From a virus, in the IMG/VR virus record IMGVR_UViG_3300022827_000018, positions 1 through 40,962 of that record: a stretch of DNA of 40,962 bases; one strand, given 5' to 3'. Position numbers and translations under genes: made by a program. The notes under the pieces were generated by a model that made no database searches, was not told the DNA's origin, and saw only the letters and a program-made list of their open reading frames with translations. Position 1 is the stretch's first letter; every line of letters starts with the position of its first letter. This document shows positions 7,400-29,196 of this stretch, in pieces.

Positions 7400-8081
7400 A
7401 AAAATATGGGAACTCTTCAGATTGTATATGTTCTATTATATTAGATTTCCACTCATTAAACTTACTGATCTCTTTCTTATGGAAGAACCGCCCAGCAAGC
7501 ATATCAAATGGGTTGAACCTAAGTTCATATTTAGAATAGTCAAATGATATCTTTGCATAATAGTATTTCTTATATTCTCGCATCAATATCATATCTAAGT
7601 CACGGTATTCTAGATCCAACTCAGTATTTATTTCATCAAATTCTCTTCTACTATATTTCATGGAACCGTTATTCTGAACAGATAGTTTTATATTTGCCAT
7701 ACTTTCAAAATATTCTACCTTGGAATCTTTTGACAATTCCAATGTAAGATCAATCAACTCCGGTATAGCGATGGTTACATAATACTCTCGCCAATGATCT
7801 GTATGCCCAGCACATGAACTAACCGGAAAATACCCCTTACCTAGTAGTGCTGATACTAATGGAAATACTCCAGACTCGATCTGACTTTCAAACCTACTAT
7901 GATACGGACTAACCGTTACCGCAACATATGGTTCATTTATATTACTTGCATATATCTTACCATTAACATGTTCATAGTTTGGACATCTATTGAGTAATAT
8001 ATCCCTATAGTCAGACTCTGATATAGTGTCTTTCTGTTGTCTATATTCTACAACTTGTTTAATTGTAGTGTTCGTTAACAT
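7392..8081 (-). CDS. Unknown island protein with SSCAGH motif
   Basis: A 229-aa soluble protein I do not recognise. The most distinctive segment is VFPLVSALLGKGYFPVSSCAGHTDHWREYYVTI, with SSCAGH at 88-93 and further His at 96, suggesting a metal or substrate site; the SSCxG wording recalls the TYW3 tRNA-modification family (SSCSGR) but the rest does not obviously match. The C-terminal half is charged and aromatic (MREYKKYYYAKISFDYSKYELRFNPFD). It overlaps the radical SAM gene before it by 23 bases and the one after it by 8, so all three are almost certainly co-translated. It may act as a partner or substrate-binding protein of one of those enzymes; that is inference from context. Confidence 0.8.
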   Translation of the reverse strand: MLTNTTIKQVVEYRQQKDTISESDYRDILLNRCPNYEHVNGKIYASNINEPYVAVTVSPYHSRFESQIESGVFPLVSALLGKGYFPVSSCAGHTDHWREYYVTIAIPELIDLTLELSKDSKVEYFESMANIKLSVQNNGSMKYSRREFDEINTELDLEYRDLDMILMREYKKYYYAKISFDYSKYELRFNPFDMLAGRFFHKKEISKFNEWKSNIIEHIQSEEFPYFYA

Positions 8082-9132
8082 ACTCAGTTACCATTAGTTG
8101 ATCAGTCATTCCATTTGCGTCGATAATATCTTGTGCAATCGATTTCATACGAACACAATGTTCTTCAACCATCTGATGTTCTTTTAAGTCAGTAATTGTT
8201 TTCTTACATCCATTACATATATCAAACATTGGACAAGAGAAACAACTTTGCTTTAGATTATTAAGTTCGGCCGCAAACTTTAAAGGAAATACCTTTGCAC
8301 CCTGCATCTCTGAATCAAAATCTATACTATACTTACGATCATCACCAAATGCGCCGCATGAATAGTAGTCACCAGAAGGTTGTAGTGTACGAATACCAGA
8401 GTCACAATTTCTGTTCTGTGGGCATGTTGTATCACCTTTGGATAAGCGGCGCATCATTTGAGTTGTATTATATTCCCACTCGCTCAAACCCGCTTTCCAT
8501 ATTTTGACATATATCTCGTAAATCTTGGACAACATATAGGGCCTGCCTTCTTGACCCATTATGATGTTCTTAAACTTAACCGGAGGGCCAGAACTCAATG
8601 CATAGTTTAATTTACATACAACACCCATCTTCTTAGCGAGTTCCACATTCTTAATCGCAAGGTGTTCATTCTCCTCAGTGACAACTGCAATGAAGTCTGG
8701 GCGGTATCCGACTTTTTCTAACATCATATCACTGACGTTCCAGAAATCTTCCTCGCTGAATTCGCTAAGATCACCTTTTAACCTACCACCACCATATTGA
8801 AAAGATGTCGTGATACCCAATCTAGGGTGATTAAATAAGTCTACCCATTTATCCGGATTCTTATAGAAAGGCCATAAGTTAGAAGTGAAAGATATACTTG
8901 CACTAGAACCTATTTTATCCAAGTGTTTTATTAATTGCCAATAGTAATCTGGTTTCATCATCAGAGGGTCTCCCCCATTAACGATGATCGTAGCAGTCTC
9001 GGGGAACCTCTCTAGAAACTTGTAAATATAATCTAGGTCTAGTTCTAATGTCTTATCTTCAGTAATATGTGTACTAGAGCAAAATGTACATTTAAAATTA
9101 CATCGCTCTGTTGGTTTAATTATCAGGTCCAT
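8059..9132 (-). CDS. Radical SAM/SPASM enzyme F
   Basis: A 357-aa protein. C11-x3-C15-x2-C18 (RCNFKCTFCSS) is the radical SAM signature, and TIIVNGGDPLM at about 48-58 carries GGDP in the SAM-binding position. Cysteines 237, 243 and 259 (TTCPQNRNCDSG, YYSCGAFGD) and C297-x2-C300-x5-C306-x2-C309 with C326 form a SPASM-like domain able to bind two auxiliary Fe-S clusters. The segment LQPSGDYYSCGAFGD is the usual SPASM strand-turn. SPASM enzymes mostly modify ribosomal peptides (thioether, C-C or epimerisation chemistry). The start overlaps the end of enzyme E by 17 bases and the C-terminus overlaps the next gene by 23, placing it firmly in the operon. The substrate is not shown by the sequence. 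Confidence 0.92.
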   Translation of the reverse strand: MDLIIKPTERCNFKCTFCSSTHITEDKTLELDLDYIYKFLERFPETATIIVNGGDPLMMKPDYYWQLIKHLDKIGSSASISFTSNLWPFYKNPDKWVDLFNHPRLGITTSFQYGGGRLKGDLSEFSEEDFWNVSDMMLEKVGYRPDFIAVVTEENEHLAIKNVELAKKMGVVCKLNYALSSGPPVKFKNIIMGQEGRPYMLSKIYEIYVKIWKAGLSEWEYNTTQMMRRLSKGDTTCPQNRNCDSGIRTLQPSGDYYSCGAFGDDRKYSIDFDSEMQGAKVFPLKFAAELNNLKQSCFSCPMFDICNGCKKTITDLKEHQMVEEHCVRMKSIAQDIIDANGMTDQLMVTEYVNEHYN

Positions 9133-10180
9133 AATGTAATATATTCTCAGATTCCATTCTATTAAAATATTCTCTAAACAAGCACTCTTGTGTTCTCTCT
9201 AACTTCGCCCAATCTGCTTGAACAAAACATCTAAATCCACAACGGTCAAACCACTTGCAACTTAGACAGTCATTTCTTTCTAAATGAGCTTCTATTATAT
9301 TATCATTAGAGTTATAGTCGACTTCAGTTTCAAATACATCTTCTTCATAATCCATATACCTACAAGTAACTTCTCTACCGCTTGGTAGAATCGTTGTCTT
9401 ATTCATAGAATAGCAAGTCATACGATTATGTTCATTTTCTATCAGGTCTTTGATAGGATATATCTCAGGATAATTCTTAGAGATGTACATCATACAGTCT
9501 AACATTTCTGTCTCAGAAGGCATCATCTTTTCGGCAGATAATTCTGGAACATAATAATCAAAATATAGAGTATAGTTTTTATACAGTACATCTTTAAAGA
9601 ACTTATCTTTGTTTAACAAGATTTTTCGTATAGCGGGGCGGGTCAATACAAAACCAATTACAGTTATATATTCACCAAATATCTTAAGGTTATGTTCATA
9701 TTGTAGAGTTCTATTTAGATCAAACCCACGCCCAGCAAAGTCATATGAAGTTGATATAAACGCATTATCATTACCATAACTACGCATCTTCATTAATAAG
9801 GAAACTGCCCTATCCGACTGATTAAAGATAAGGTTAGTTACCCAATTAAAACGCACAGTTTGTGCATTAGAATTACACCAATCGGTTATTCGTTTATAGA
9901 AATCCCAATATTGCGTAAATACTTCATCGGGAACTAAATCATTAAAGATCTCACCACCCATGACATTAACTATGTGGCTTTCCATAGTAGAAGTTTTCAT
10001 GAATTCAATTACTTGATCAGATTTTTCTACGATCGTATTCATACCCTCTTCAGAGTCGTGATCTTGCCCACAAAAAGCACAACTTAAATTGCAGAACTCA
10101 AATAAGTGAAGTTCTATCTCGCTTGAGTTTGGAATCTTATCTCGAAGTACGTGTTTTAAATATTCGCTGTTGCTACTCAT
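9116..10180 (-). CDS. Radical SAM/SPASM enzyme E
   Basis: A 354-aa protein starting MSSNSEYLKHVL at 10180. An upstream in-frame ATG at 10216 would overlap the previous gene by 44 bases; a GGAAA sequence before 10180 and the 8-base overlap there favour this start. C30-x3-C34-x2-C37 (FCNLSCAFCGQD) and GGE at 75-77 (VNVMGGEIF) mark the radical SAM core. FISTSYDFAGRGFD near 141-153 parallels the S-x-D segments of its sisters. C256, C273 (VTCRYMDYE), C305-x2-C308-x5-C314-x3-C318 and C333 match a full SPASM domain with two auxiliary clusters. It is closest in style to enzymes F and G downstream. Confidence 0.92.
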   Translation of the reverse strand: MSSNSEYLKHVLRDKIPNSSEIELHLFEFCNLSCAFCGQDHDSEEGMNTIVEKSDQVIEFMKTSTMESHIVNVMGGEIFNDLVPDEVFTQYWDFYKRITDWCNSNAQTVRFNWVTNLIFNQSDRAVSLLMKMRSYGNDNAFISTSYDFAGRGFDLNRTLQYEHNLKIFGEYITVIGFVLTRPAIRKILLNKDKFFKDVLYKNYTLYFDYYVPELSAEKMMPSETEMLDCMMYISKNYPEIYPIKDLIENEHNRMTCYSMNKTTILPSGREVTCRYMDYEEDVFETEVDYNSNDNIIEAHLERNDCLSCKWFDRCGFRCFVQADWAKLERTQECLFREYFNRMESENILHYGPDN

Positions 10181-10592
10181 AAATTTCCATATAGTCGGAC
10201 ATGTCACCAATAACAAATGTATTTGGTAGTTTATGACAATACTTAGGTTCGTTTCGGGTGTGGATTATTACTAATTTAAAAACGTTAGACCACTTTTCCT
10301 CTTTCAACATAGAAGATACCAATATATCGAATACTTCTTTTATAGAAGTTAACCCTAACTCATCAGTAAGATAAAGTATATTGTTATCTATTAACCTAAA
10401 CTCCATAGAGATAGGATAGTAGAGATGATCACCATGTTTGTAAAATACTATGGTCGATATATCAAACAATGCCTGCTTGAATTTAGAATATTCTACTTTA
10501 GCAATTCCATCTTCTTGCACAGATGTAATCGTACAAGACAATATTTCTGTTCCGGGATTTCGTATGAGGTGATCACTTTTACCTTGTATCAT
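10173..10592 (-). CDS. Unknown island protein, 139 aa
   Basis: A 139-aa protein (MIQGKSDHLIRNPGTEIL...) with an N-terminal beta-rich half (ILSCTITSVQEDGIAKVEYSK) and a mixed C-terminal half ending FVIGDMSDYMEIYE. No motif, signal peptide or membrane segment is visible. It overlaps the 249-aa gene upstream by 4 bases (ATGA) and radical SAM gene E downstream by 8, so it is embedded in the island transcript. Small proteins tightly coupled to radical SAM genes are often leader-binding or chaperone partners, but there is no RRE-type sequence pattern I can point to here. Confidence 0.75.
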   Translation of the reverse strand: MIQGKSDHLIRNPGTEILSCTITSVQEDGIAKVEYSKFKQALFDISTIVFYKHGDHLYYPISMEFRLIDNNILYLTDELGLTSIKEVFDILVSSMLKEEKWSNVFKLVIIHTRNEPKYCHKLPNTFVIGDMSDYMEIYE

Positions 10593-11338
10593 AAGCAGTC
10601 TACCTCAGAAAGTAAAATATCCTTTGCCCAGCGGATTGGTAACTTAGATGAAACGTCTCGATTAGATGATATCAAAACAGAATTGGGTTCTGCTGTAATA
10701 ACTGTCTGTAATGACGCGTCTGTCATATGCAAAGTGCCAATATCAGATTCATCAAAACTTAAAGATGCTACAACGTTAGAATATAAGAACAGTTTGGATA
10801 TTTCATCTGAAGTGTATATTGATTCTATATACGACTTACAAAATTCGTAAGAACATTGTAACTCCATAACGCTTGTTTCTAATAGGTCATCGTACCCTAA
10901 TAATAATGCATCCTTGGTGAACCTAATCAACGACCCCATAAAAAAATAAGTGGTGTCTTGTTGCAGCGCGGTAACTAAACTGTCTATCTGCATCAGACAT
11001 ATATCATAATACTGCGCTTGGGTCATCCAATTGCGATACTTCTTATCCAATAATTCATAAACTGCGTAATCTGATCTAGATTTATTTCTATCATCTAACG
11101 AGTTGTGCTTACGGTTTGTATATGATGTCCATTCTGTACGAGTATATTTTTCTTCTATAGATATTTGAGACAAGAATATACGAACCAGCCCATTCATGCT
11201 GAGTTGTCCTTGCTCATAGTTCCTAGTGCCAAGTGTGAACCTATAGAACCCAGGAAATAGGTCTCCTGAAGAAAGAATCGTTTTTACAAATTCTTCTTCA
11301 GTTAATTCTGTGCCTAATTTTAGTAAATCAACTGCCAT
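10589..11338 (-). CDS. Unknown island protein, 249 aa
   Basis: A 249-aa mostly helical-looking protein starting MAVDLLKLGTELTEEEF. It contains SRSDYAVYELLDKKYRNWM and MELQCSYEFCKSYIESIY segments and ends LLSEVDCL. No catalytic motif is recognisable, and no signal peptide or membrane helix is seen. It overlaps radical SAM gene D by 11 bases and the 139-aa gene by 4, so it is translated together with them. It probably serves the same pathway, for example as a scaffold or substrate carrier; that is based on context only. Confidence 0.78.
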   Translation of the reverse strand: MAVDLLKLGTELTEEEFVKTILSSGDLFPGFYRFTLGTRNYEQGQLSMNGLVRIFLSQISIEEKYTRTEWTSYTNRKHNSLDDRNKSRSDYAVYELLDKKYRNWMTQAQYYDICLMQIDSLVTALQQDTTYFFMGSLIRFTKDALLLGYDDLLETSVMELQCSYEFCKSYIESIYTSDEISKLFLYSNVVASLSFDESDIGTLHMTDASLQTVITAEPNSVLISSNRDVSSKLPIRWAKDILLSEVDCL

Positions 11339-12431
11339 ATGGGAGAGTCCCCATAGCGTTTACAACGTGCATCGCGTCTTTTGCAACCAAACAGTCTTTA
11401 ATACCATGTATGTCCATAAGATGTAGAATGCCTCTATCAACACAAGACCCTAATAATGGACAATCACCACATTCGGTTTTATCGCCGACGTTCATATATT
11501 GATCAAGTTGAATTTTTTCTTCATACTGTTCAAACTCTTTTGCATCATATTCTACAATCGGCATTTTCAATTCTGGTATGAATGATACATAACGCTCATA
11601 CAGTAGGGGAGAATAATAAAACTCACCATTCTTCCAGTTATATTGTTTTTCAATTAAGGAGTCATTCAATCTACCAAAGGAGAATCGTAGGTACTCACCC
11701 TTTTCTTCAGAAACAATCGATCCGTTAAAAATGCGTTTGATACGCTCTGCCGCTTCTTTAAATTCTTCAGATTGCAGACCTTCATCTTTTCTACCCAAAG
11801 AGAAGTTAAAATCGATAGTTGTTTCAAACAAATGTTCGACTTTCTTATGCATGTAATCATAATCTTTAAGCATTTCTGCTAATTTAGTATCGTCGTAATT
11901 AAATACGTTCATGATACCAAACCTACGAACAGGCGTTGGCCAGTCTAACATTTTGATAAACTGCTCTTGATGTTTCTGTAATACACTAAGGTACTTTGCG
12001 TTATCGATCTTCTCAGGTTCGATAATAATATTAACCTCTAACTCCATTTCAGAATAGTCATCTTTTAGTATTGAAGCAACTAGTTCCGCCTTACCTAAGT
12101 CTAAGTAAGTGGTCTGAAATGATATTCTCTTAAACTTATTGAGGATTTTCTTAACCCTGTTGTCTGTCAATACCGAGTATGTGTTATTTGCAGATAGAAA
12201 ATCTGTCGGTGCAATGAATGCTATGAAAGGTTTGTATGAATTTTCTTCACTAAAAGAATTCATGATCTTCTCCAATTGATCAAATGTATGATCATTCATT
12301 GGTTCAGAACCTTCTTTATTAACGTGACAACCTTTACACTTAAATTGACATCCGTTTAGAAGTTCAAAATTTAAGTTGAAATAGAATCCATCGGATTGGT
12401 TCAAGTTACCTGATGCTAGATACGCGTCCAT
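11328..12431 (-). CDS. Radical SAM enzyme D, PTD-type (no GGE)
   Basis: A 367-aa protein. C28-x3-C32-x2-C35 (GCQFKCKGCHV) is a canonical radical SAM cluster motif. The usual GGE/P position after beta-strand 2 is instead FIAFIAPTDFLSANN (PTD at 75-77), the same replacement seen in enzyme B (LLPTDIF), so D and B form a subfamily of their own. The C-terminus has only C321-x2-C324-x5-C330 and C347, suggesting a single auxiliary cluster or a structural metal. It lies between the unknown 243-aa gene (6 bases upstream) and the 249-aa gene (11-base overlap). The chemistry cannot be predicted; the altered SAM-binding loop is unusual. Confidence 0.88.
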   Translation of the reverse strand: MDAYLASGNLNQSDGFYFNLNFELLNGCQFKCKGCHVNKEGSEPMNDHTFDQLEKIMNSFSEENSYKPFIAFIAPTDFLSANNTYSVLTDNRVKKILNKFKRISFQTTYLDLGKAELVASILKDDYSEMELEVNIIIEPEKIDNAKYLSVLQKHQEQFIKMLDWPTPVRRFGIMNVFNYDDTKLAEMLKDYDYMHKKVEHLFETTIDFNFSLGRKDEGLQSEEFKEAAERIKRIFNGSIVSEEKGEYLRFSFGRLNDSLIEKQYNWKNGEFYYSPLLYERYVSFIPELKMPIVEYDAKEFEQYEEKIQLDQYMNVGDKTECGDCPLLGSCVDRGILHLMDIHGIKDCLVAKDAMHVVNAMGTLPYGS

Positions 12432-12437: not shown

Positions 12438-13169
12438 TTACCCCTTGACTGAATTTAGTAGTTCATTAATGTCTAGAGGAATTTTCCCATCAAACATTAG
12501 TTGAATAATTGTTGGAAATGTGTTTTCTTCAACGTTATAGTAATGGAACAACGAGTGACCCTTAAACATATGACCATCAAACTGATGTTCAAAGAAAGAA
12601 ACTTTAGACTCTTGGTCTGAATTGAAATACAACCCTAAGAAGTTGGGAATCTTAAACATGTTAACGACATTAAGACCAACATAGTTGGGATCTGAAATAG
12701 GTTCAAACTGTTCTTTTAATTTCAACTCTTTATTAATATCTTCAAAACAATACAACAAATACAGCATAGTAGAATCGATAAAATGTGTCCACCTATCAAC
12801 CATTTCTTTCCGAGTATTAATATATTCTTCCACTAATTCTTCTGAGAGATATGCATTCTTCATAATAGATGCGGTATCTAACCCCTTTGCCTTCAATAAA
12901 ATATGAGCGACAATTGTATTTAGAAAATGAATATCAGAAATTGCTTTAATTTCCATATAAGAGTCTATCAAAGAAAATATTTTCTCTTTGTCGAATCCCT
13001 TAGCGATGTACACATCTGATGGGACATCTAGATTAGAAAGATATGTCAAGAACACTTTACCAGCAAGTTTACTATTTTCATAATCAACTTCAAAGAAAAT
13101 AGTTTTATCTTGGAAATATTCTTTAATACTATCGATAGAAATGGGAACAATGGTTTTACGGATGTTCAT
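12438..13169 (-). CDS. Unknown island protein, 243 aa
   Basis: A 243-aa soluble protein (MNIRKTIVPISIDSIKEYF...) with a helical middle (KNAYLSEELVEEYINTRKEMVDRW) and an aromatic, His-rich stretch FFEHQFDGHMFKGHSLFHYYNVEE around 196-219 that could bind metal or form a beta-hairpin. No known family recognised. It overlaps radical SAM gene C by 14 bases and ends 6 bases before radical SAM gene D, so it is bracketed by a C/D enzyme pair and likely works with them. Confidence 0.78.
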   Translation of the reverse strand: MNIRKTIVPISIDSIKEYFQDKTIFFEVDYENSKLAGKVFLTYLSNLDVPSDVYIAKGFDKEKIFSLIDSYMEIKAISDIHFLNTIVAHILLKAKGLDTASIMKNAYLSEELVEEYINTRKEMVDRWTHFIDSTMLYLLYCFEDINKELKLKEQFEPISDPNYVGLNVVNMFKIPNFLGLYFNSDQESKVSFFEHQFDGHMFKGHSLFHYYNVEENTFPTIIQLMFDGKIPLDINELLNSVKG

Positions 13170-14286
13170 TATAATTTTCTCTCAATTCAGTTAGGTTCGG
13201 TTTTGCTTTATTCAAGTATATTGGTATGAACACATCTAGTTCATTTCGTATTCTACTTATAACAGATTTCGAAAGAGGGCACTCGTCAGTATCATCGAAT
13301 AAACTCGCATCACAGTTGCCTCCACAGATATCATAGTGTTCACATTCAAAGCACATTGTATGGTGCTCCATCTCAGCAAGTTTCTTTATAATAATCTCTA
13401 GAGACTTTTCTTCAAATTTCGCCCAGTCATTACGCATTTCATGTACTGTTGAAAATGGTTCAATGTAAGTTTTATCTGGACATAATCCAACCGTTCCATT
13501 TGGATTCATCGTGAATGTTCGCTTATCACAGCAATTACATTTACACTCAAATAAGTTACCCGACATTAGGGTTTTAGTGAATAAGTCGATTTGAGGTAAA
13601 CACCAACTAGTTTCATTAGTAGTGTAGTAATCAACAAGTTTGTTTAACCATGCAGCCCACTTTTTATTATTGGGTCTTAAGTTACTTGTCTTTGCATCAA
13701 AAGTTGTTAGGAGTTCAAAGTCAATAGAATCTACTCCGGGAAACTTTTCTACAATTTCAATTGGATCGTAATTTAATAAGTTCTTCTGTGCAGTAATAGC
13801 AATGTGGACATTAACTCCGGCGTCGATTAATTTATGCAAGTTTTTAAAAAACAAGTCCTCTTGTTGAGTTTTCTTGTTAATTGCAATTGATCCAAACCTA
13901 ATATCTGCGTCCCAACTTACGCCGATAGTATTTCTATACTCGGTTTTTATAAAATCTATAAACCTATCATCAACTTTATATACTAGGTTAGTCTGTGGAA
14001 CAATATCGATTTTTGCATAGCCAAAGTATTTCCTTATCAAGTCGTTCACAGACTTCAAATATGAAAGAGGGGCTAGGAAAGTTTCTCCGCCGTGGATATA
14101 GAATGTAACCTTCTCTGGGTTAACATTGTCTTTTATTGAAGACAGATAATCTTCGATTAAATGTAACTCAGTAAGCGCAATTTTGTCCTTGTTACCTAAT
14201 GTAAAACAATGATCACAGTTTAGGTTACATCCCTGAACAACTCTAATATATACTACATTAAATTCACTTGAAAATATACTACTCAT
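13156..14286 (-). CDS. Radical SAM/SPASM enzyme C
   Basis: A 376-aa anaerobic-sulfatase-maturase-like enzyme. C20-x3-C24-x2-C27 (GCNLNCDHCFT) is the radical SAM motif, followed by TFYIHGGETFLAP (GGE 66-68) and GVSWDADIRF at about 122-131. The C-terminal SPASM region has C248, C250, C252, C253, C269 (NPNGTVGLCPD), C312-x2-C315-x5-C321-x3-C325 and C336. The HGGExFLAP and G(T/V)SWDxxIRF wording is nearly the same as in enzyme A, so A and C are clear paralogues. The gene starts 17 bases after the 345-aa gene and overlaps the 243-aa gene by 14. Enzymes of this type usually modify Cys, Ser or Thr side chains of peptides; all three residues fill the repeat of the 172-aa protein. Confidence 0.93.
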   Translation of the reverse strand: MSSIFSSEFNVVYIRVVQGCNLNCDHCFTLGNKDKIALTELHLIEDYLSSIKDNVNPEKVTFYIHGGETFLAPLSYLKSVNDLIRKYFGYAKIDIVPQTNLVYKVDDRFIDFIKTEYRNTIGVSWDADIRFGSIAINKKTQQEDLFFKNLHKLIDAGVNVHIAITAQKNLLNYDPIEIVEKFPGVDSIDFELLTTFDAKTSNLRPNNKKWAAWLNKLVDYYTTNETSWCLPQIDLFTKTLMSGNLFECKCNCCDKRTFTMNPNGTVGLCPDKTYIEPFSTVHEMRNDWAKFEEKSLEIIIKKLAEMEHHTMCFECEHYDICGGNCDASLFDDTDECPLSKSVISRIRNELDVFIPIYLNKAKPNLTELRENYNEHP

Positions 14287-14303: not shown

Positions 14304-15341
14304 TTATTTCCTTAGAATAAATTTAGACAAGTCCTTTGTCGAACCTTTTCTATGCCTATCATAACAGTATGTAGCAAAAACTTGATTACACTTATCCATA
14401 AAGCGCGTTCTAGTATACGAGCATCCATAGTTTCTAGCAATGTCTCGTAGCAACAGACCAGGATAATCATCATGATTGATCATATAATTAACCTCGCTCA
14501 TATCATCATACTCATGACCCCAAACTTCTGCTAACTTTACCCAACATGGATCAAAGGTAGTATATGGGTAAGTTGCGCGAATATACTCAGTACCTTCTTT
14601 AAATCTAGGGTCAACTGTCCAACTAAGGAATTTACTTTTCTTGAGGCCTCCTTCAACGCCGCCCAATGGGGTTTTAATAGTAGGGTCTAGTTTTTCAGCA
14701 TCGATATTACCTGACAATATCTCATACTTCAAGTGCTCAAGTTCGTCTACCCAATTATCCCAAGTTAAGAATTCAATCTTTTTAAATAACTCAGTCTTAT
14801 ATTTAGAACGGTTGTTCGCCATGTAATCTGCAAGCAAATATTCAAAACTAACAGTACTCTTATCAATTGCAAGTAATGTTACACTGTCTTCAACATTATT
14901 AAATAGTTGAGATATCTCATACTCATTTTTAAACTCTGCTTGTTCTAGTAAGTTCTTATTCCGGTAAGATTCCATATAAGAATATAACCGTACAGTCTCG
15001 ACCCAACTCGTATGAAGTTTAAATACAGATGCTGCGTCGATAGAATCGCTAAAAATATGCTTCCAATATTGAACTTGCAATTGGGTCATAATGTCCGGAG
15101 AAACAAATACAACTAATTTAGAATTCCCCTGATATCCATATAGATACGCCCAAAATGATTCTACTGAACTTTCAAACTTTTCATCTAACATAGATTCAAA
15201 ACTTCTATATTGGCCAAGTACTTCGTTTGAAGAAACCTGCATTGGATACTCGTTCAATCTAGAAGATGCGGTTATAAAGTCGCCCTTGTGTTCGAACTTA
15301 TAATCATATTCCAAATAAACTTTTTTAAATATGTGAAACAT
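14304..15341 (-). CDS. Unknown island protein immediately after the Cys-repeat gene
   Basis: A 345-aa protein (MFHIFKKVYLEYDYKFE...) I do not recognise. The first part has alternating strands and helices (KLVVFVSPDIMTQLQVQYWKH near 96-115). The middle contains LGGVEGGLKKSKFL, and the C-terminal third is aromatic and Cys-containing (FDPCWVKLAEVWGHEYDDM, ARNYGCSYTRTRFMDKC, TYCYDRHRKG). No membrane segments or signal peptide are seen. It starts 3 bases after the stop of the Cys-His repeat gene, with GAAGAAG from that gene's RGRR codons serving as its ribosome binding site, so the two are tightly coupled. It is a candidate for a partner, carrier or acceptor of the Cys-His repeat protein. The role is inferred. 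Confidence 0.8.
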   Translation of the reverse strand: MFHIFKKVYLEYDYKFEHKGDFITASSRLNEYPMQVSSNEVLGQYRSFESMLDEKFESSVESFWAYLYGYQGNSKLVVFVSPDIMTQLQVQYWKHIFSDSIDAASVFKLHTSWVETVRLYSYMESYRNKNLLEQAEFKNEYEISQLFNNVEDSVTLLAIDKSTVSFEYLLADYMANNRSKYKTELFKKIEFLTWDNWVDELEHLKYEILSGNIDAEKLDPTIKTPLGGVEGGLKKSKFLSWTVDPRFKEGTEYIRATYPYTTFDPCWVKLAEVWGHEYDDMSEVNYMINHDDYPGLLLRDIARNYGCSYTRTRFMDKCNQVFATYCYDRHRKGSTKDLSKFILRK

Positions 15342-15344
15342 ATA

Positions 15345-15863
15345 TTATCTTCTTCCTCTTGAACCGTGACATGAACTATGACATGAACTATGACATACTC
15401 TTAAATCTATTACGGGCGCATTATACTGGGCATCGTCGAATACTGTTCTGACCGATGACATAAAAGCATCCATTCCACTACTAGTAATTATTCCATCTAC
15501 TTTAGCACCGCTAACATAACTAATCAGATGACCATTATTAACTATATATGCATCATTTAGTCTACACACGTCAGTTCTATCTTCAGAAGTTCCTCCTGCA
15601 TCAAGTATCAATCCAGATCTTGCTCTGCGGAATGACGTAGTTAGTAACGCATATGCCTTGACTTGTGCCATAATAGTAGATGCTGTGATCAACGATTCAG
15701 ACAAAACACTAGCAGGCATCGTTGTGACATCCCTTGGGCCTAATGCAGCAACATTAATATTAGTGGGCCTGTTAGCATCCCAGAATACAGCAGTATTATA
15801 CGCTGGAGTTTTTACCAAAGTCCAGTATTTATCTGCAACAGATTGTTTAGTTATATTTCCCAT
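15345..15863 (-). CDS. Putative radical-SAM-modified precursor with C-terminal Cys-His-x-Ser repeat
   Basis: A 172-aa protein with a strong ribosome binding site (AGGA, 7 bases before the ATG). Residues 1-156 form an ordinary-looking folded region (FWDANRPTNINVAALGPRDV, SLITASTIMAQVKAYALL, VCRLNDAYIVNNG). The last 16 residues are CHSSCHSSCHGSRGRR, that is C157-H-S-S, C161-H-S-S, C165-H-G-S, then RGRR. Only one other Cys exists (C100). Short Cys/Ser/His repeats at the C-terminus of a protein encoded between radical SAM genes are typical of RiPP precursors, and HxS repeats recall the HxsA/HxsB/HxsC systems, though the leader is unlike any I know. It could instead be a virion protein whose tail is modified, or a metal-binding tail. 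The reading as substrate is inference. Confidence 0.8.
   Translation of the reverse strand: MGNITKQSVADKYWTLVKTPAYNTAVFWDANRPTNINVAALGPRDVTTMPASVLSESLITASTIMAQVKAYALLTTSFRRARSGLILDAGGTSEDRTDVCRLNDAYIVNNGHLISYVSGAKVDGIITSSGMDAFMSSVRTVFDDAQYNAPVIDLRVCHSSCHSSCHGSRGRR
15360..15395 (-). repeat. Three 12-bp tandem repeats encoding Cys-His-x-Ser
   Basis: Minus-strand units TGTCATAGTTCA, TGTCATAGTTCA and TGTCACGGTTCA lie head to tail at the 3' end of the 172-aa gene. Two are identical and the third differs by two bases (Ser to Gly and a silent His change). The identical copies suggest recent duplication, so repeat number may vary between relatives. Confidence 0.95.
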
Positions 15864-15871: not shown

Positions 15872-16900
15872 CTATAGTTCTTTATAAAGTTTGTGACATC
15901 CTAGGTCGAATTCTTCTGCTATTGCAAAATAATACTTACCCATACAATGCTGTAAATTATCACACTCAGCACATTCTTCTATTATAGGTATATTTATATC
16001 AGTTATTTCACCGTAACAATCCAAGAATCCATTGTACGAAGGTTCTTGTAGCAAGTAGATAGGTTTTTCTATGTGTGTATATTCATCAAACGGTACTATG
16101 GGATTGGTATATATCCTATTCGGAGAACCAATAAACGTGAAAGAAGGTTTACGCATAAAGGTTCTGTCGTTATATTGTTTTACGAATGACGCGTCACTTT
16201 GATAATAGTTTCCAAAGGTATTAACTGTCGCTATACTTTTTGCCATCATGGATTTTTTCTTATCTTCTGAGATATCAGTGTTGTATAAAAAAGTAAAGTT
16301 TAGTTCCACAATGCCGTCCTCTGATATCTCAGATAACATACTTTTCAATTTAGTAACTTCTCGTTCAGTCAGAGCAAACCCTGTATTGATAGCAAGATTG
16401 ATAACAATTCGATCACCATATTTCTCATTCAGTATGTTTATATTTCTTCTTATTAACATTTGATAGTTGATGTCAAATAATCGGTTTATCACCAAATTAA
16501 CTTGAAGTTCTACTCGTATATCAGAGTTTACACTATACACTATATCAAACAGTTTATCATCATGGCCGTTCTCTAGAGTTGAAGCAATGCCTGCATATGA
16601 AAACCGAGATAACATTTCAACAAATTCTGGTATATCAAATAAGTTATAATTGTCGGGGTTGTCGAATATATCGGTTGGTAATAAGTAACAAGTTTCCATC
16701 TTATACCCGTTACTAATCATATCTAGACATAGGTCTCGAGCCGAAGACCAATCATCATAAGTGTTGTTATTTTTTTTATAAAAACAGCCCTTACAGTCCA
16801 TGGAGCAATGATTAAGTGACATTACCCTAAACTCTACAAGTTTGTCTGGGTCTCCATATAAGTCATATGCAGTTGAGTAAGGATTTTCTCTAGTACTCAT
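15872..16900 (-). CDS. Radical SAM enzyme B, PTD-type (no GGE)
   Basis: A 342-aa protein. C32-x3-C36-x2-C39 (HCSMDCKGCFY) is a radical SAM motif, preceded by the usual beta-strand (VEFRVMSLN). The SAM-binding loop reads CYLLPTDIFDNPDN (PTD 75-77) rather than GGE, as in enzyme D. The C-terminus carries C310-x2-C313-x5-C319 and C335, one auxiliary cluster at most. Its ATG overlaps the end of enzyme A by 4 bases and its stop is 8 bases before the Cys-His repeat gene, so A, B and the putative substrate are consecutive in one transcript. It contains a TATAAATA box near its 3' end that could serve the next gene. Chemistry not predictable. Confidence 0.88.
   Translation of the reverse strand: MSTRENPYSTAYDLYGDPDKLVEFRVMSLNHCSMDCKGCFYKKNNNTYDDWSSARDLCLDMISNGYKMETCYLLPTDIFDNPDNYNLFDIPEFVEMLSRFSYAGIASTLENGHDDKLFDIVYSVNSDIRVELQVNLVINRLFDINYQMLIRRNINILNEKYGDRIVINLAINTGFALTEREVTKLKSMLSEISEDGIVELNFTFLYNTDISEDKKKSMMAKSIATVNTFGNYYQSDASFVKQYNDRTFMRKPSFTFIGSPNRIYTNPIVPFDEYTHIEKPIYLLQEPSYNGFLDCYGEITDINIPIIEECAECDNLQHCMGKYYFAIAEEFDLGCHKLYKEL
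15991..15998 (-). promoter_or_regulatory. Possible late promoter box inside radical SAM gene B
   Basis: TATAAATA on the minus strand, about 130 bases before the ATG of the Cys-His repeat protein. It could give that gene extra late transcription. It lies in coding sequence, and some octamers of this composition are expected by chance, so support is weak. Confidence 0.3.
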
Positions 16901-17949
16901 AATTGCTTAATCATCAGGGTTGGATATTTTTTAACAGTAGTAGAAAGACCAGCAAGGTGCCTCATTAAAGTCTTAGGAGCACCACATATATCACCCTGCC
17001 ATTCTAGTTGATGACAGTCACTGTTACAGTATTGAAAAACTTCGCAGGTATAACAACGCGGATCTCGAGACCTCTCACACGCAATATTATTGATTCGTAT
17101 TGGTGAATCAAATAACTCTTGCATGGTATGCTCGATTCTACCAAAGTGGTCTTCAGGCGCACTATTTGGGCAACCTGATATAGAACCATCTGCGTTGAGT
17201 GTAAGTAATTTCTCCTCACAGTCACGACAGAAAGTTCCTTCAGAAGTAGAACCACTTTCAAATTTAGAATAAACAGTCTCTAGAAAGTCATTATCTAACC
17301 AACCTCTTGCATCATGTTCTATCATCTGTTCATGCATTAACATAAACCACGCATCTTGCTCGATATTAGACGGAAATATTTCGGGAAACAGTTTAGCATT
17401 TCCATTGTTGGTTAAACGCTCTAAACTCATTTCCTTTATACCTAATGACTTTACATATTCTAATAAATCAATAGGTTCTATGTCTAGTGTATCTTTGGTG
17501 ACGCTTACAAACAGCTTGATATCTACCCCAAGAGATAACAGTTTACGCACATTCTTTTCCCAAAGTAGGCGCTGTTTCTCGTTAGCAAACCTAATGTTTG
17601 GGTCCCAACTTGTTCCAATTCTGCTATTGAGTGGGCCTTGTATAAACTCAATGATCTCATCAGTTAGTTTAAATACTAGATTAGAAGTTACACCCCAGCT
17701 CATATTTTCCCATAATTTATCACAGGCAGAATGAACTTTCCAGAATTCTTCGATAGGCGCGAGGAAAGGTTCACCCCCGTGAAATTCAAAGTGTATATTT
17801 GGTAACTCGGGTTTATATTCATGTAGCCGAGTTATCCAGTCTATGGTTTCGTCAGTATTCCAATATATCTTGGCACCCTTTGAACCACTCGTAAAACAGT
17901 GTTTACAATTAAGGTTACAAGTTTCTGTAGTCTTCAAATATATTAACAT
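16897..17949 (-). CDS. Radical SAM/SPASM enzyme A
   Basis: A 350-aa enzyme of anaerobic-sulfatase-maturase style. C11-x3-C15-x2-C18 (TCNLNCKHCFT) is the SAM cluster motif; FEFHGGEPFLAP has GGEP at 58-61, and GTSWDPNIRF lies at 112-121. SPASM cysteines are C241-x2-C244, C260 (NADGSISGCPN), C299-x2-C302-x5-C308-x3-C312 and C322, enough for two auxiliary 4Fe-4S clusters. It is the first radical SAM gene of the island, 14 bases after the JmjC-like gene, and its stop overlaps the start of enzyme B (ATGA). It is paralogous to enzyme C. Substrate unknown, but the putative precursor is two genes downstream. Confidence 0.93.
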   Translation of the reverse strand: MLIYLKTTETCNLNCKHCFTSGSKGAKIYWNTDETIDWITRLHEYKPELPNIHFEFHGGEPFLAPIEEFWKVHSACDKLWENMSWGVTSNLVFKLTDEIIEFIQGPLNSRIGTSWDPNIRFANEKQRLLWEKNVRKLLSLGVDIKLFVSVTKDTLDIEPIDLLEYVKSLGIKEMSLERLTNNGNAKLFPEIFPSNIEQDAWFMLMHEQMIEHDARGWLDNDFLETVYSKFESGSTSEGTFCRDCEEKLLTLNADGSISGCPNSAPEDHFGRIEHTMQELFDSPIRINNIACERSRDPRCYTCEVFQYCNSDCHQLEWQGDICGAPKTLMRHLAGLSTTVKKYPTLMIKQL

Positions 17950-17963: not shown

Positions 17964-18446
17964 TTATCTTTCGGAAAGAAACATCTCTAATCCAAAACTC
18001 AGTATCAATGATTCTTCTTTATTCAATGCTTGATGCATAGTTCCCTTTGAAATCATAATTGATTCCCCCTCTGGTATACAAGATTCTCCAGTATATTCGA
18101 TCATCATATATTTTTTACCATACACTGTATGTATAATCACATCCTCGGTGTCCATATGCATAGGGAAACTTATAGCACCCTTTGGAGACATAAACGCATG
18201 ACATGTTACTATACCCTTGCCTATGTGATTATTCTCCACAGCGATCCGAATACACTCGTTGTGAAGGGCCCTGTCATACTTCTCCATTGACTCAACCTTT
18301 ATGGTTTTGTCTAAGTTAGAATGTAATTCGCCAAGGGAGTCAATGTATATCTGACGCCCTCGGCGATCTATGTAAGAAATTATATGTTGGTCAAATACTA
18401 CCTGAGATTGTATAAATGTATCAAATTCGTATTTGTTTAATAACAT
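17964..18446 (-). CDS. JmjC/cupin-like Fe(II) oxygenase
   Basis: A 160-aa protein whose second half has the JmjC/cupin layout: SFPMHMDTEDVIIHTVYGKK, with H97-x-D99 as two metal ligands and the typical (q)v.GkKy.m(i)E strand after it, then GESIMISKGTMHQA with H138 as the third ligand. This arrangement is that of small 2OG-Fe(II) hydroxylases that act on proteins or amino acids. It is shorter than most JmjC hydroxylases, so it may be a minimal version or a non-catalytic metal-binding cupin. Its ATG overlaps the stop of the 971-aa fibre gene by one base, placing it first in the island and co-translated with the fibre, which makes the fibre another possible substrate. Confidence 0.75.
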   Translation of the reverse strand: MLLNKYEFDTFIQSQVVFDQHIISYIDRRGRQIYIDSLGELHSNLDKTIKVESMEKYDRALHNECIRIAVENNHIGKGIVTCHAFMSPKGAISFPMHMDTEDVIIHTVYGKKYMMIEYTGESCIPEGESIMISKGTMHQALNKEESLILSFGLEMFLSER

Positions 18447-21361
18447 TACAATATAACTGCTTCTACAACTTTCTTTCCAGTGTCTTCGTTGGTTTCTAGT
18501 GCAAGTGCAAACACATCACACTTATCGCCTATGGTTGAAGCATAACCGCCATCAGTTGCAAACAGTCTTTCTCCTTTTTTAACTGGTCCAATAACTTTAA
18601 CGGGAACACGCCCCTTCAATGCTATGTATACTCCACCTTCAAGGTCTCTGTTCATCATGAATGCGGGATTCTCGGAAACAACCCCAAGCGCTCTGACACC
18701 AGAAGTTGCCAATGTGATTTCTTTTTCACCACCTACCATAACAACCGTTCCAACTTCATATTCAGCATCAGGTAAATACTTTTCTGCCAAGTCAGCATAG
18801 TTTGCAGAGGAAGCAGTTCCATTAAATACGTTCGCATACATAACATTATATCTACCATTCGCATGACCGATATCGTATGCACTAGTAGACCTAGGATATA
18901 TACTTGAACTAGTTAGGTTACCTGTCATAGTATCACCCGTCTTGATAAGGTATCGACCATCAAGAGATGAAGTGGAGGTGTTAATAGAAATATTAGCAGA
19001 GCCATCGAATGACGCACTACCTGTCACGGAACCTGTTAAAGATATAGTTCTAGCAGTAGTCAATCTGCTAGCGACACCTGCCGAAGAAGAGCTACCACTA
19101 ATAGAAACTGGCCATGTGCCAGATGCTCCAGAACCATTTTTCCTGGGGTATAAACTATCAGACTCTGTTTCGGTATAATATCTATCGTCATGGGTGTGGC
19201 TACCATTGATAACCGCAGTCTGAATAGTTACACTACCTAAGTTATTCACAATGGCTGATCCAGTGACGTCGCCTGCTAATGTGATACTAAAGTCGTTTAC
19301 ATCCGACTGTATTTTTCCATTAACATCGTCATAGTATATACTGATACCATTTTCGATATTAGGAGAAGAAACCATACTACCGACGATGTCTTGAATTTCT
19401 TCAACAAAATTAGAAATACCAGAGGCAGTAATATTACTAGTGGTATTTAAAGTGACGTTTGAAGAACCGTCAAAAATAACACTACCAGATAAATCCCCAG
19501 TCAAAGATATAGTTCGACCCGTTGCTAACTTAGTAGCATTGCTTGCAGTTGCTGCGTTACCATTAATAGACACTGACCAAGTACCAGATGCTCCAGAACC
19601 ATTTTTCCTGGGGTATAAACTATCAGACTCTGTTTCGGTATAATATCTAGTATCTAAGTTTAACGAATTGATTGCGGTGATGTGGCCGAAAGTATCTAGA
19701 GTAATATCCTGAATGACTGTACCAGCAGAATTATTTACAGATGCTTGTGTACTTGTATCCAAGTGAGATATGGTCACAGAAGGTCCCTGACCCCCGCCAA
19801 CCATACCAGCACCAGCAAGTACTTGTCCAATTAAACTATATGTTGCAGATGTGTCTGAAATAGACCACATGTCAACAGACTCATTCCAGAATAGGCTTAC
19901 ATTAGATTGACCACCGCGTTCAATTTCAATCCCTCCATTTTCACTTGGAGTGTTTCCAGTATAGTTTGAATTCAATGTGATAATGTTATCTGCAATATTA
20001 ACAGTTTCAGTATTAACAGTTGTTACAGTACCAAGAACACTAAAATTACCATTGACGGTTAAATCATTAGTGACAGAAAGAGAATTAATAGTAGATGTTG
20101 AATTAACAGTTATACCACCGCTGAATACTGGTTTAGATGAGAAGGTTTTTACACCTGAGATTGATTGAGCCCCAGATGTTCTAACTACAGTGCCATCAAC
20201 ACCTATGGTAACATCAGCACTCTCACCCGAGTTACCAGTTAAAGTAATGCCGCTGCTGACAACCGACGTCAATGTAGAAAGGTAATCGCCTTGAGTATCA
20301 GCACCCAATACGACCCTGTTAGCAGGAATAGTAGTTACGATAGAAACATTGCCCAAGTCAGTAACAGTAGCAGTTCCAGTAACATCGCCCGTCAATGAAA
20401 TTGTGAAATCATTCACATCAAAATTTAACTTATTAGTGTTCTGATTGTAACTAACAACAATCCCGTTCTCTGTATTACTTTCTACAAGATTCTTTATATT
20501 TTGTGAATCTATCAAGAATGGGGTAATGACAGAAACTCCATCCGAATCCAAGCGTTTTACGGACCAGTTCTTTGTAGACTCATCCCAATACACACGGACA
20601 TCTGGGCGAGAATTTCCTCCGAAAGTACCGCGCTCAATAATAATTCCACCAGAAGTCGCAATTGAAGAAGTTGTATCACCAAGAGATAAGAAAGTCGCTT
20701 TGATGTCTAGAGTTCCACCAGCACCACCTATGATCAAGGTTCCATCAGATATATCTAAAGTTCCATCAATTGTAAATGTCTTGCCAGAAGGCATGGACAT
20801 ATTCGATAAAACTGCTTGAGTTGAGTTATTGTTACCACCAACGGTTGCGTTGGTCAAGTCCAATTTTAATGTATTGTTGTAACGAGAAGTTTCCAGTACC
20901 AACAGACTATTTACAGACCCGACTAAAGTGCCTTTATCAGTAGTATTTAATGTACTCAACACACCCAGTTCACTATCTAACTCGTTGATAGAACTAACAA
21001 TTGTTGATTTTGTCGTCGTTGTTAGTGAACTGAGAACACCTAGTTCACTATCTAACTCGTTGATAGAAGAAACTAGGTTTGCCTTGTTGGTAGTCGTAAG
21101 AGTATTAATGACACCAATTTCAATGTCATGTTCATTAACTGCACCTACCAAACTAGATGAGTTTGTAGTTAGACTACCAATATTACCTATTTCATATTCT
21201 ACTTTATTCAGTAGTTCTAATAAGCCACCAGTCAGGTCATCAGAACTTAATGTAGTATTCGCTACTAGTAGTGAGTTATCGCCTATTTGTAAACCGATTT
21301 CGTTAGTTGCGACACGCCATGCGTCGAAAGTATCGGTTTTTGTTACATTAATTATTGCCAT
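18446..21361 (-). CDS. Large tail fibre protein with conserved C-terminal domain
   Basis: A 971-aa fibre. The N-terminal 150 residues contain four coiled-coil-like repeats (SSINELDSELGVLS, SLTTT(T/N)K). The shaft includes NLTVNGNFSVLGTVTTVN and IADNIITLNSNYTG wording and two copies of RYYTETESDSLYPRKNGSG followed by ARTISLTG-type units. The last 130 residues (AYDIGHANGRYNVMYANVFNG, then SANYADLAEKYLPDAEYEVG) form a globular C-terminal domain widespread in marine T4-like fibres, perhaps an autocleaving chaperone or peptidase_G2-like domain; that comparison is from memory. The next gene downstream begins at its stop codon. It is a virion surface protein, probably receptor-binding. Confidence 0.9.
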   Translation of the reverse strand: MAIINVTKTDTFDAWRVATNEIGLQIGDNSLLVANTTLSSDDLTGGLLELLNKVEYEIGNIGSLTTNSSSLVGAVNEHDIEIGVINTLTTTNKANLVSSINELDSELGVLSSLTTTTKSTIVSSINELDSELGVLSTLNTTDKGTLVGSVNSLLVLETSRYNNTLKLDLTNATVGGNNNSTQAVLSNMSMPSGKTFTIDGTLDISDGTLIIGGAGGTLDIKATFLSLGDTTSSIATSGGIIIERGTFGGNSRPDVRVYWDESTKNWSVKRLDSDGVSVITPFLIDSQNIKNLVESNTENGIVVSYNQNTNKLNFDVNDFTISLTGDVTGTATVTDLGNVSIVTTIPANRVVLGADTQGDYLSTLTSVVSSGITLTGNSGESADVTIGVDGTVVRTSGAQSISGVKTFSSKPVFSGGITVNSTSTINSLSVTNDLTVNGNFSVLGTVTTVNTETVNIADNIITLNSNYTGNTPSENGGIEIERGGQSNVSLFWNESVDMWSISDTSATYSLIGQVLAGAGMVGGGQGPSVTISHLDTSTQASVNNSAGTVIQDITLDTFGHITAINSLNLDTRYYTETESDSLYPRKNGSGASGTWSVSINGNAATASNATKLATGRTISLTGDLSGSVIFDGSSNVTLNTTSNITASGISNFVEEIQDIVGSMVSSPNIENGISIYYDDVNGKIQSDVNDFSITLAGDVTGSAIVNNLGSVTIQTAVINGSHTHDDRYYTETESDSLYPRKNGSGASGTWPVSISGSSSSAGVASRLTTARTISLTGSVTGSASFDGSANISINTSTSSLDGRYLIKTGDTMTGNLTSSSIYPRSTSAYDIGHANGRYNVMYANVFNGTASSANYADLAEKYLPDAEYEVGTVVMVGGEKEITLATSGVRALGVVSENPAFMMNRDLEGGVYIALKGRVPVKVIGPVKKGERLFATDGGYASTIGDKCDVFALALETNEDTGKKVVEAVIL
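19119..19184 (-). repeat. 66-bp exact repeat in fibre gene, copy 1
   Basis: This 66-base segment is identical to 19584-19649. On the minus strand both encode RYYTETESDSLYPRKNGSGASG followed by TW, with identical codons, which points to recent duplication or gene conversion inside the fibre gene. Confidence 0.95.
19584..19649 (-). repeat. 66-bp exact repeat in fibre gene, copy 2
   Basis: Identical to 19119-19184, 465 bases apart (155 codons), in the same reading frame of the fibre gene. Recombination between the copies would remove exactly one 155-residue module in frame. Confidence 0.95.
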
Positions 21362-21612: not shown

Positions 21613-24600
21613 TTAACCGTAGATAGCAATTGCTCTGAAGTCTTTACAAGTTGGTACGAAAGAACTATTAGAAGATTTCAGCACAATTTTAAACGCCATA
21701 CTGTTAAATTCCACACCACCTAATTCGGAGTCGATAGTAAATTCAACTTCTTCATAGTAATTAGGGTCTTCGCTGAATTCAATGACTGTATCGGGTTGTT
21801 GAGCAATCCAAGGCAGACCATCAAAATTAGCATCAGATGCTGATTGTACTTTATAGTAAAGTTCTATATCTGTGTTTGAAGGGCGGTTTGTAGAAAGAAT
21901 GACCTTGATTTGGTTAGCATCCTCAGCAAGTGAAACTCTTCTAGTAACATATTTAGACTGAGCAGATCCACCAGTTGCACTAGTTTCTTCAACAAAGTTA
22001 TCTACAAAGTTAAAACCTTCAACAACAGTGTCTGACGGATTGTCGATTAAGTTAGCGACCGCAAACACCGATACTCTATCCAAATCAATCACTGGAGACA
22101 ATGTCGACTTATTAGTATTTACAACACCTCTCGCTTTAAATCCAGGCACACCACCAACTTGATTTACAGTGCTAGGTACACATTGCAATCTATTGAATAG
22201 AGTGTTCTGGTTAGAAATAATTGGGAAATAGTTTGAAACACTATAAGGGAGTTCACTACCTGCAAATGATTTTCCAGTAGTAACCTTTGCGAACCAATCT
22301 ATATTAGTACCAGGAATAACCAATTCTTGAACAGAAAACTGAGCAAGGTTCATCAAACGATTTCCAGTTGCAAATATAGAGTTTCCACCAGCACGCCCTG
22401 TTGAAGTTGCACCTGTAACAGTTTCAACTTCATAGTACTCTTTTTCAACTCGTGTGATAGTATGTTCTTTGTTCAGTTCGTTCAAAGGTATACCATTCAT
22501 GAAAGTTGTGGCAGTCGGTTGAACACCAGATACGACAACTTTTGAGTTTACAAACAAACCATGATTCTTATGTGTTATTCTAACTGTATTTGAACCGCTA
22601 GTTGTTAACAAGGAATCATTACCTAATTTAGTTGACTGTAAATCAGTATTTTCCATATAAACTTCACCCGAAGTTTCAAAGTCAGCACGATTTAAGTTAA
22701 ACTTTAGATCTTTCTCCTGCTCCGGTGTCCATGTAGAAGCATTCTGAGACTTAAAGAACACGCCCATGTATGGTTGTTTTGAAATTCTGTATGTTGGATT
22801 AGTAACGTCAAAACCACCCATTTCGCCTACCCATGCTCTTGGCTTGTCCGACATAGATATAATCACAATAGCATACTCAACACCTTGCTGCAGGTGTACT
22901 GGAGCTTCGAATGTGAATCTAGTCGCAACTGAAGCGTCTTCGGAAACATCATCGCTAGTAAGTGTGCGAGTGACCCTAGAGAATGGGATGATACGTGAAG
23001 TAGGTAGACCGACTTCGGTAGGAACCAAGTGAACTGTCACTGGAATATTCTCATCAAAGTGTGAGAAGAATAAGTCGATCGAAGTTGCAAAGATACCACC
23101 CGGCTCGTCAACCATAATAGTTTGCGCGAGCGGATCACGCCATGTTACTCTAACAGAAGTACTTGTTCTACTAGTAGTAGATGTCAACACTCGCGCATCG
23201 TTCAGATTAGACCTCTCGATTCTAGGAACTCGTGTAGAAAGGATAACGTTTTCTTTAGACTCTAATAAACCAGAGGCTTCATATATCGCTTCTGCTGTAG
23301 TAGTTGTATTTGAAACTATATTATCAGCACTATCTGTCAAACGGAATACCCGTTGTCCAGTTTTAAATCTAATAGATTCGTTATTTGGTATAATGAAGAA
23401 ACCTGTTATAGAACCAGTAGAGTCAGTTTCTAAGTCTGTCTTAGTTGCAACATCACCTGGCCAAGTGTAAAATCCATTAAAAGTGTGACCAGAAGTGTAC
23501 TGTGGATTTGCCTCAACAAAGTCGTTGAATGTAAAGAACTCATCAGTCGTTGTTGCATAGTTAGTGATATCTTTGCCATCAAAGTAAGCGTATATCTTGG
23601 TGTCTGGTTTCATGCGTTCTGCTTTGAAGGAAACAATCCTAGAACGAATAAAAGGAATAAAGTTAACCTCAACAACACGATCCCCCAATGAAGTAGTAAC
23701 AGTGTCAGGAACAACTTCTGTTCTCAGTCCTGTTCTAGATTGGTTTGTTTGTGTAGTTGATGTAGTAGTGACAGAAGTAGTGATACCTCTAGTGGAAGAA
23801 GTCGTGTTACTTGCAGTAACACCACTCCAGTTTACTTGCCATTCGTTCCATACTGTACCAGCTACACCAGTTGCATCAGCAAGGTCTTTGAATGAATCGT
23901 AAATACCTTCTTGGTCAATAACAACTTCAGGTCTGCTATCGGTATCTTTCCAGTTATCAGACTCTGGCGACAATGTAATTTCACCATCCCATGAGAATAT
24001 ATTATATGGATTAACAAACTCAGAGTAGGAAGCATATGGTTGACTAATGTACGAAACTTCATCGTAGTCTAGTGTCAACAATGGACCCGTTAGGCGCATA
24101 CCAGTTGTGTTGATAGAATCTAATTTTAATCTAACTTCAGTTTCAGTAAACTGTGGTCGCAAAGTTCCTGTAGATTTATCAATGGAAACTGAGTAATCTG
24201 GGTGCGATGGGTTTCCCACGTTGTGCCCATAGAAACTATCTACGATGAAGCCATTCTTAAATGACCCAGATGATACTTGGTAGTCAGCAGTTTCTTTTTC
24301 AAGTAAAGACAAACTAGTGTAGTATTCTAGGTTTTTAACTCTTCGTTCGATCTTACCGATGTCGCGCATTGTGTATCGCTTGTTATCGATCATCTTAGGC
24401 AATATCGAATCAACTCCGAAGGTGTACGCACCTACGAATAATTCATACAATATCATAGAATCTTGCACTTCACGTGCAGACTCAGGATTTAGTGCAGGAA
24501 CGCCTTCTGAAATACCGAATTTACCGTACTTATCGACATACACCTTGTCTGAACGATTTAAGTAATATGTAATATCAGACTTAATTAAAGATCCAGGTTT

Positions 24601-26874: not shown

Positions 26875-26886
26875 ATTAGTCCCTCT

Positions 26887-28245: not shown

Positions 28246-28258
28246 TTAATAATACCTC

Positions 28259-29191: not shown

Positions 29192-29196
29192 AATAA

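Follow-up and report, generated by a model that had tools for sequence, protein, structure and literature searches.

The window analysed here is a stretch of 40,962 nucleotides of viral DNA, positions 1 to 40,962 of the IMG/VR record IMGVR_UViG_3300022827_000018. It carries an island of radical SAM genes (Table 1), whose order after the tail-fibre gene is C, R1, a radical SAM gene of the diverged 'd' subfamily, T, Q, rSAM C, K and rSAM D; two unknown genes separate these from rSAM E and rSAM F, and beyond a further unknown gene lies rSAM G. The last of these is a seventh radical SAM gene that was absent from the initial annotation of this DNA. The T module adjoins baseplate and tail-fibre genes that lie upstream of it in the same orientation, the baseplate set coding for a DUF4815 protein, gp8, a baseplate wedge protein, gp6, gp25, the gp5 hub/lysozyme and a tail protein. 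As annotated initially, T lies between the radical SAM pair A/B and the radical SAMs C and D, and two genes of other kinds (Q and K) are interspersed in the stretch that it shares with rSAM C and D.

Table 1. Features of the T island and its surroundings in the window
Feature	Position	Strand	Basis
T, protein of 172 amino acids, ATG start	15345..15863	-	ORF call; family of 197 distinct frames
T, N-terminal domain	residues 1-156
T, C-terminal tail CHSSCHSSCHGSRGRR	residues 157-172
R1 (rSAM A), SPASM radical SAM enzyme, proposed T maturase	16897..17949	-	Cys motifs and clade membership
C, cupin/JmjC-like putative Fe(II) oxygenase, upstream of R1	17964..18446	-	PF08007 and HxD...H
rSAM B, 'd' subfamily, between R1 and T here and in a few other loci	15872..16900	-	CSMDCKGC motif
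Q, conserved partner protein, phrog_36207	14304..15341	-	PHROG; homologues in 72 loci
rSAM/SPASM C	13156..14286	-	Pfam, NCBIfam, tree
K, conserved partner protein, phrog_20767	12438..13169	-	PHROG; 109 loci
rSAM D ('d' subfamily)	11328..12431	-	Pfam
rSAM E, TTG start	9116..10216	-	phrog_1802, 1.2e-45
rSAM F	8059..9132	-	PF04055 above cut-off
rSAM G	6488..7399	-	PF04055 3.7e-07; phrog_1802 9e-34
Tail-fibre protein directly upstream of island	18446..21361	-	phrog_11011 long tail fibre distal subunit, 2.2e-29
T4-type baseplate genes	21613..34776	-	Pfam and PHROG matches

T is coded on the minus strand; the plus strand over the gene is dense with stop codons. The coordinates and letters given initially are correct, residues 157 to 168 reading CHSSCHSSCHGS and the protein ending in RGRR, and only the strand had been omitted; in the translation of the window, the C-terminal end reads VCHSSCHSSCHGSRGRR. 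The same annotation credited T with the best ribosome binding site of the island. The site is a fair one (AGGA, 6 nt upstream of the ATG), but the superlative is arguable, as other genes of the island have AGGGG or GAGG. No Pfam or NCBIfam family matched T, comparison with PADLOC and with PDB sequences returned nothing useful, and the PHROG match, phrog_35144, covers the last 23 residues only. Literature searches retrieved no paper describing the protein, the tail string used as a query matching unrelated words only.

Conservation of the T tail

The T-type ending occurs far above chance. Searching the viral contigs with the T of the window alone gave no relative, because the N-terminal domain diverges fast, and it was the tail pattern that recovered the relatives. 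A DNA pattern scan detected the 16-residue ending in at least 119 stretches of the viral contigs, and 19 matches were obtained in genome contigs, 16 of them real; the three bacterial matches in Frankia, Pseudoalteromonas and Bordetella are due to chance and are not genes. The distinct reading frames that end exactly in CHxxCHxxCHxxRxRR-stop number 197.

Because the DNA pattern itself fixes the Cys, His and Arg residues, we used searches that are blind to the tail, either by the partner protein K or by the N-terminal domain of T, and these gave sets that partly overlap with each other and with the pattern-fetched one. At the loci fetched with the K profile, every T gene in view ends exactly in CHxxCHxxCHxxRxRR-stop (78/78; two of them lie where a contig ends). 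Among these 78 proteins, 35 were new. With the N-terminal domain as the query, all 69 complete genes keep the tail, and three contigs stop within the gene. Homologues with the N-terminal part and no Cys-His tail, which the initial annotation had named as the finding that would speak against its proposal, were thus not encountered among these 69. In the logo of the K-fetched proteins, nine Cys, His and Arg positions are invariant and the fourth residue of the repeat is Ser (Asn). The tail stays fixed while the N-terminal domain diverges, most homologues being 17-32% identical to the T of the window. Synonymous codons vary freely at the conserved tail positions, and selection therefore acts on the protein.

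The number of repeats and the layout of the locus are not always the same. One phage locus (L035) has four repeats (CHSNCHSNCHSNCHTNRSRR), and its T and K are followed by an unbroken run of seven radical SAM-like genes. In a second layout (L006, L036, L056, L078 and others), two tandem T genes of about 127 amino acids are followed by 'd'-subfamily radical SAM genes and K.

Linkage to one clade of radical SAM enzymes

The co-occurrence of such tails with radical SAM genes had been put forward as a check on the initial annotation. A radical SAM gene was found near all of the 75 T genes with full flanks, that is, at least 1.5 kb upstream and at least 4 kb downstream of T. When any usable flank was accepted the count was 169 of 176, and for the seven T genes that make up the difference the sequence ends close to the gene on at least one side. 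In a tree of 273 radical SAM proteins, the deep joins of which are unsure because FastTree was used, 60 of the 65 enzymes adjacent to T fall in a single clade that includes R1, and the five outside it come from loci where a 'd' radical SAM is the immediate neighbour. A radical SAM gene other than R1 directly adjoins T at L097, L127, L131 and L139 as well as in the window. Gene order is largely kept: at the 119 loci that have a gene upstream, R precedes T in 80 and C precedes R in 54, and K directly follows T in 85, with Q next in 61. The linkage also holds in the opposite direction. By tblastn, only seven of 50,697 phage records contain an R1 homologue, namely those of Sinorhizobium phage Phosso, Agrobacterium phage Atu_ph07 (two records), Burkholderia phages S13, FLC6 and FLC8, and Pseudomonas phage DT01; all seven also hold K and T, and in each the gene with the T-type ending lies just after R1.

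R1 has the sequence features of a SPASM radical SAM enzyme. The cysteines of the CxxxCxxC cluster motif (C11, C15 and C18) are invariant in 29 sequences. As judged by the auxiliary-cluster pattern CX9-15GX4C-gap-CX2CX5CX3C-gap-C, R1 reads CX10GX4C-CX2CX5CX3C-C, and its eight Cys/Gly positions (C244, G255, C260, C299, C302, C308, C312 and C322) are all invariant. It matches phrog_1802 at 6.1e-67, and the neighbouring radical SAM proteins match the Radical_SAM family of Pfam. The nearest NCBIfam models of R1 are those of the sulfatase maturase, a methanogen peptide-modifying radical SAM enzyme, DynA, PapB and HxsB. It scores far below the cut-off of each, and therefore thioether or C-C bonds as well as Cys/Ser oxidation are all possible products. 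Islands contain up to nine radical SAM genes in the stretches read, and with several of them per island some or all could act on targets other than T. A viperin-like defence function was also considered and set aside, only weak superfamily-level matches being obtained.

Predicted fold of T and its partner proteins

The initial annotation described the N-terminal part of T as more like a folded domain than a leader, and structure prediction agrees. The AlphaFold model, built on 69 sequences, has a pLDDT of 84.5, with a confidently predicted N-terminal domain and a tail at 55-58. Fold searches gave no PDB match at E<=0.001 and no VIA-align match at Z>=2; among viral models a few uncharacterised proteins matched, including the T of Atu_ph07. 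Three larger proteins of a single phage, Myoviridae sp. ctijX18, match the T fold (BFVD A0A8S5USV2, A0A8S5USJ8 and A0A8S5USJ7).

The C protein of the window matches PF08007 (JmjC_2) with 25.0 bits for a cut-off of 22, and the HxD...H metal triad (H97, D99 and H138) is invariant in 30 sequences. The alignment also contains a nearly invariant Lys, as is known from JmjC enzymes. Cupin dioxygenases are among the matches of the C profile, as is MINA at a weak level. C is thus a putative 2OG-Fe(II) JmjC/cupin oxygenase, which might act as a hydroxylase. Genes annotated as 2OG-Fe(II) oxygenases are found in the islands of Burkholderia and Pseudomonas jumbo phages (L003, L004 and L226), and those of the Burkholderia jumbo phages contain genes annotated as dihydrofolate reductases too. 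K is predicted with a pLDDT of 95.7; its fold search gave no PDB match at E<=0.001, a best Z of 4.4 and marginal HTH-type matches only. We considered K as a winged-helix RRE and dropped the idea, the predicted model being unlike one. Among the island proteins scanned, neither a leader peptide nor an RRE-type recognition domain was found, and Pfam and NCBIfam gave no PqqD-type match.

Probable virion location of T and its occurrence in Bdellovibrio-like predators

According to Attai et al. (PMC6102473), mass spectrometry identified 131 proteins in Atu_ph07 particles, and the virion cluster is named there as CDS 170-215. The numbering of the Atu_ph07 record agrees with that of the paper for gp215 (major capsid protein), gp198 (portal) and gp181 (baseplate); gp170 is therefore T, the first gene of the cluster as delimited in that text. 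T is thus probably a virion protein, the detection of gp170 itself being inferred from its place at the stated boundary of the cluster. In pelagimyophages, radical SAM cassettes lie in the host-recognition cluster, as stated in PMC7029224.

T homologues are also present in 15 of 368 Bdellovibrionota genomes, mostly MAGs, and in none of 397 comparison genomes sampled from the phylum of a Rickettsiales MAG (G004, locus L130) that served as the seed and was excluded (Fisher p 1.5e-5). The predator islands (L301, L302, L323, L324, L325 and L326 among them) contain the genes C, R, T and K, and most have Q as well. When longer flanks were read, the genes on either side proved to code for an ABC transporter, an acyl-CoA dehydrogenase or cytochrome oxidase; these borders are free of recognisable phage structural genes, and the islands therefore look chromosomal. 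A gene with the tail-fibre chaperone domain Peptidase_S74 adjoins four predator islands, and two of the four proteins have a prepilin-type N-terminus. Variant tails occur as well (L311, L312 and L314-L317), reading CHSSHSSHSSHSSRGRR, CHSNHCSHSNHGSRGRR or CHGNFPPPCHGSRGRR; the variants retain the initial CH and the final HxSRGRR. Of these, CHSSHSSHSSHSSRGRR is a genuine HxS repeat and scores 23.9 bits against the HxsA2 model, whose cut-off is 48. In one predator variant, CHSSHSSHSSHSS, His stands in place of Cys.

Comparison with described repeat systems

Haft and Basu reportedly described HxsA and HxsA2, proteins with His-Xaa-Ser repeats that accompany the radical SAM proteins HxsB and HxsC. 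The initial annotation invoked HxsA as an analogy, which gains support. T likewise has His/Ser-rich C-terminal repeats with SPASM radical SAM genes alongside, and the predator homologue ending in CHSSHSSHSSHSSRGRR resembles the HxsA repeats and weakly matches HxsA2. However, T itself falls outside the Hxs family: the T of the window has no NCBIfam match and the best variant is the one just cited, R1 scores 40.5 against 370 for HxsB, and rSAM F 31.7 against 267.9 for HxsC. Unlike in HxsA, the usual T repeat has four residues with Cys and is followed by RGRR, and the protein that bears it has a large folded domain and belongs to phage tail modules. Two HxsA2-like loci (L327 and L328) have HxS-repeat ends without RGRR, unlike T. 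By analogy, the T system may work like those of the HxsA type, from which it differs in failing their family definitions.

The CXXX-repeat peptide systems (TIGR04115/TIGR04119) share with T a four-residue Cys period and a SPASM radical SAM enzyme. The matches are weak, with 24.1 of 350 bits for rSAM_Cxxx_rpt and 20.6 of 150 for CXXX_matur, and, in contrast to T, the family name carries no His/Ser/RGRR code and these systems have no known link to tail modules. The anaerobic sulfatase-maturase model anSME (TIGR03942) is the top NCBIfam match of both R1 (51.1 bits) and rSAM C (67.1 bits), far from its cut-off of 349.45, and Pfam scans of the island found no sulfatase. The last T repeat, C-H-G-S-R, recalls the sulfatase motif CxPSR; unlike in the anSME system, the T repeats are C-terminal. 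R1 reaches 42.9 bits for a cut-off of 340 with PapB. The abstract of PMC9413430 presents PapB-type ranthipeptide maturases as SPASM radical SAM enzymes making thioether cross-links from Cys to Asp/Glu; unlike their substrates, the T tail contains no Asp/Glu acceptors. As in T islands, several radical SAM genes occur together in one phage in Campylobacter phages CP220 and CPt10 and in the pelagimyophages, but the available parts of the two papers (PMC2853527 and PMC7029224) propose no protein substrate for them. No R1 homologue was found in the Campylobacter phages at E<=1e-5.

A proposed model for T as a radical SAM substrate

A near-constant 16-residue end with radical SAM neighbours in a tail-fibre cluster suggests an undescribed modification of a host-contacting fibre part. 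The initial idea of T as a radical SAM precursor gains support from the linkage in all full-flank cases and from the single orthologous clade that adjoins it. We therefore propose, with a probability of roughly 0.6, that T is a folded accessory protein of the fibre or baseplate, that the dedicated enzyme R1 modifies its disordered C-terminus, and that T acts at the host surface. T would belong to the tail-fibre/baseplate host-recognition module, its folded N-terminal domain presenting the disordered (C-H-x-S)3-R-G-R-R tail as the substrate of the SPASM enzyme R1, and the RGRR end may serve as a recognition element. C, K, Q and the further radical SAM proteins could either assist or introduce additional modifications. 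As to the chemistry, the likeliest outcome would be bonds formed by a radical route inside the repeats, such as thioethers from the three Cys residues to their neighbours, with Cys/Ser oxidation as the alternative. Mature T would then be assembled into the particle and act at the Gram-negative cell surface, and the predators would have a chromosomal copy of the module, beside proteins with the tail-fibre chaperone domain. Several points count against this proposal: the uneasy pairing of radical SAM Fe-S chemistry with a possibly O2-dependent cupin, the number of radical SAM genes per island, the loci where T adjoins a radical SAM gene other than R1, the scores of R1 far below all model cut-offs, and the failure to find a leader peptide or an RRE-type domain among the proteins scanned.

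We speculate further, at slightly less than even odds, that phage tails and predator surface fibres share a (Cys-His-x-Ser)n tip installed by radical SAM enzymes. Such a tip would represent a new class of modified structure for adhesion or penetration, incorporated into particles, with its own maturase, a cupin-type enzyme and helpers, and directed against Gram-negative surfaces.

Alternatively, the tail could remain unmodified, its Cys and His residues holding a metal at the tip of an oligomeric fibre, with the radical SAM enzymes modifying something else. T4 gp37 and P2 gpV coordinate iron through HxH motifs, the regular spacing of Cys and His would provide ideal ligands, the gene has a tail-fibre location, and the exchange of Cys for His in the predator tail CHSSHSSHSSHSS is allowed at a metal site. 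We nevertheless consider this unlikely, since it leaves unexplained the strict linkage of T with one orthologous radical SAM enzyme, the invariant RGRR and the Ser/Asn at repeat position 4 are not features of metal ligands, and known fibre metal sites require no maturase. A product resembling RiPPs, in which the modified C-terminus of T is cut off to act as a cofactor, toxin or signal, would account for the C-terminal repeat core, the SPASM radical SAM enzymes and the other tailoring enzymes, all of which are reminiscent of RiPP clusters. It is a little less likely still, as none of the genes that recur in the module was recognised as coding for a protease or an exporter, the invariant residues reach the very last residue of T, and T is large and folded and is found at the edge of the Atu_ph07 virion-protein cluster.

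Phage radical SAM clusters have previously been interpreted in terms of auxiliary metabolism; Timms et al. (PMC2853527) proposed that the radical SAM proteins of Campylobacter phages boost host metabolism in the course of infection. Applied here, T would be unrelated cargo, and the dihydrofolate reductase annotations in the Burkholderia phage islands fit such a function. It is improbable, because cargo would keep neither an invariant 16-residue end nor a fixed order beside one radical SAM gene in several lineages of myophages as well as on bacterial chromosomes. That T carries covalent heme like a c-type cytochrome, as the CX3CH pattern of CHSSCH and the cytochrome oxidase genes next to one predator island might suggest, can practically be dismissed, given that c-heme attachment is extracytoplasmic and inspection of T revealed no obvious signal peptide, that no cytochrome maturation genes were recognised, and that HxS variants without Cys pairs exist.

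With T as the likely target, phage radical SAM clusters so far read as auxiliary metabolism gain a probable protein substrate with a searchable signature, one that is present in the cultured phages Atu_ph07, Phosso, FLC6, FLC8, S13 and DT01. If the tail is modified, virion proteins that depend on radical SAM enzymes for their maturation would constitute a new theme, and the chromosomal T of predators, beside genes with the tail-fibre chaperone domain, would link the cell-contact machineries of phages and predators. The HxS variant of the tail also provides a fresh approach to the HxsA system, which is still unsolved.
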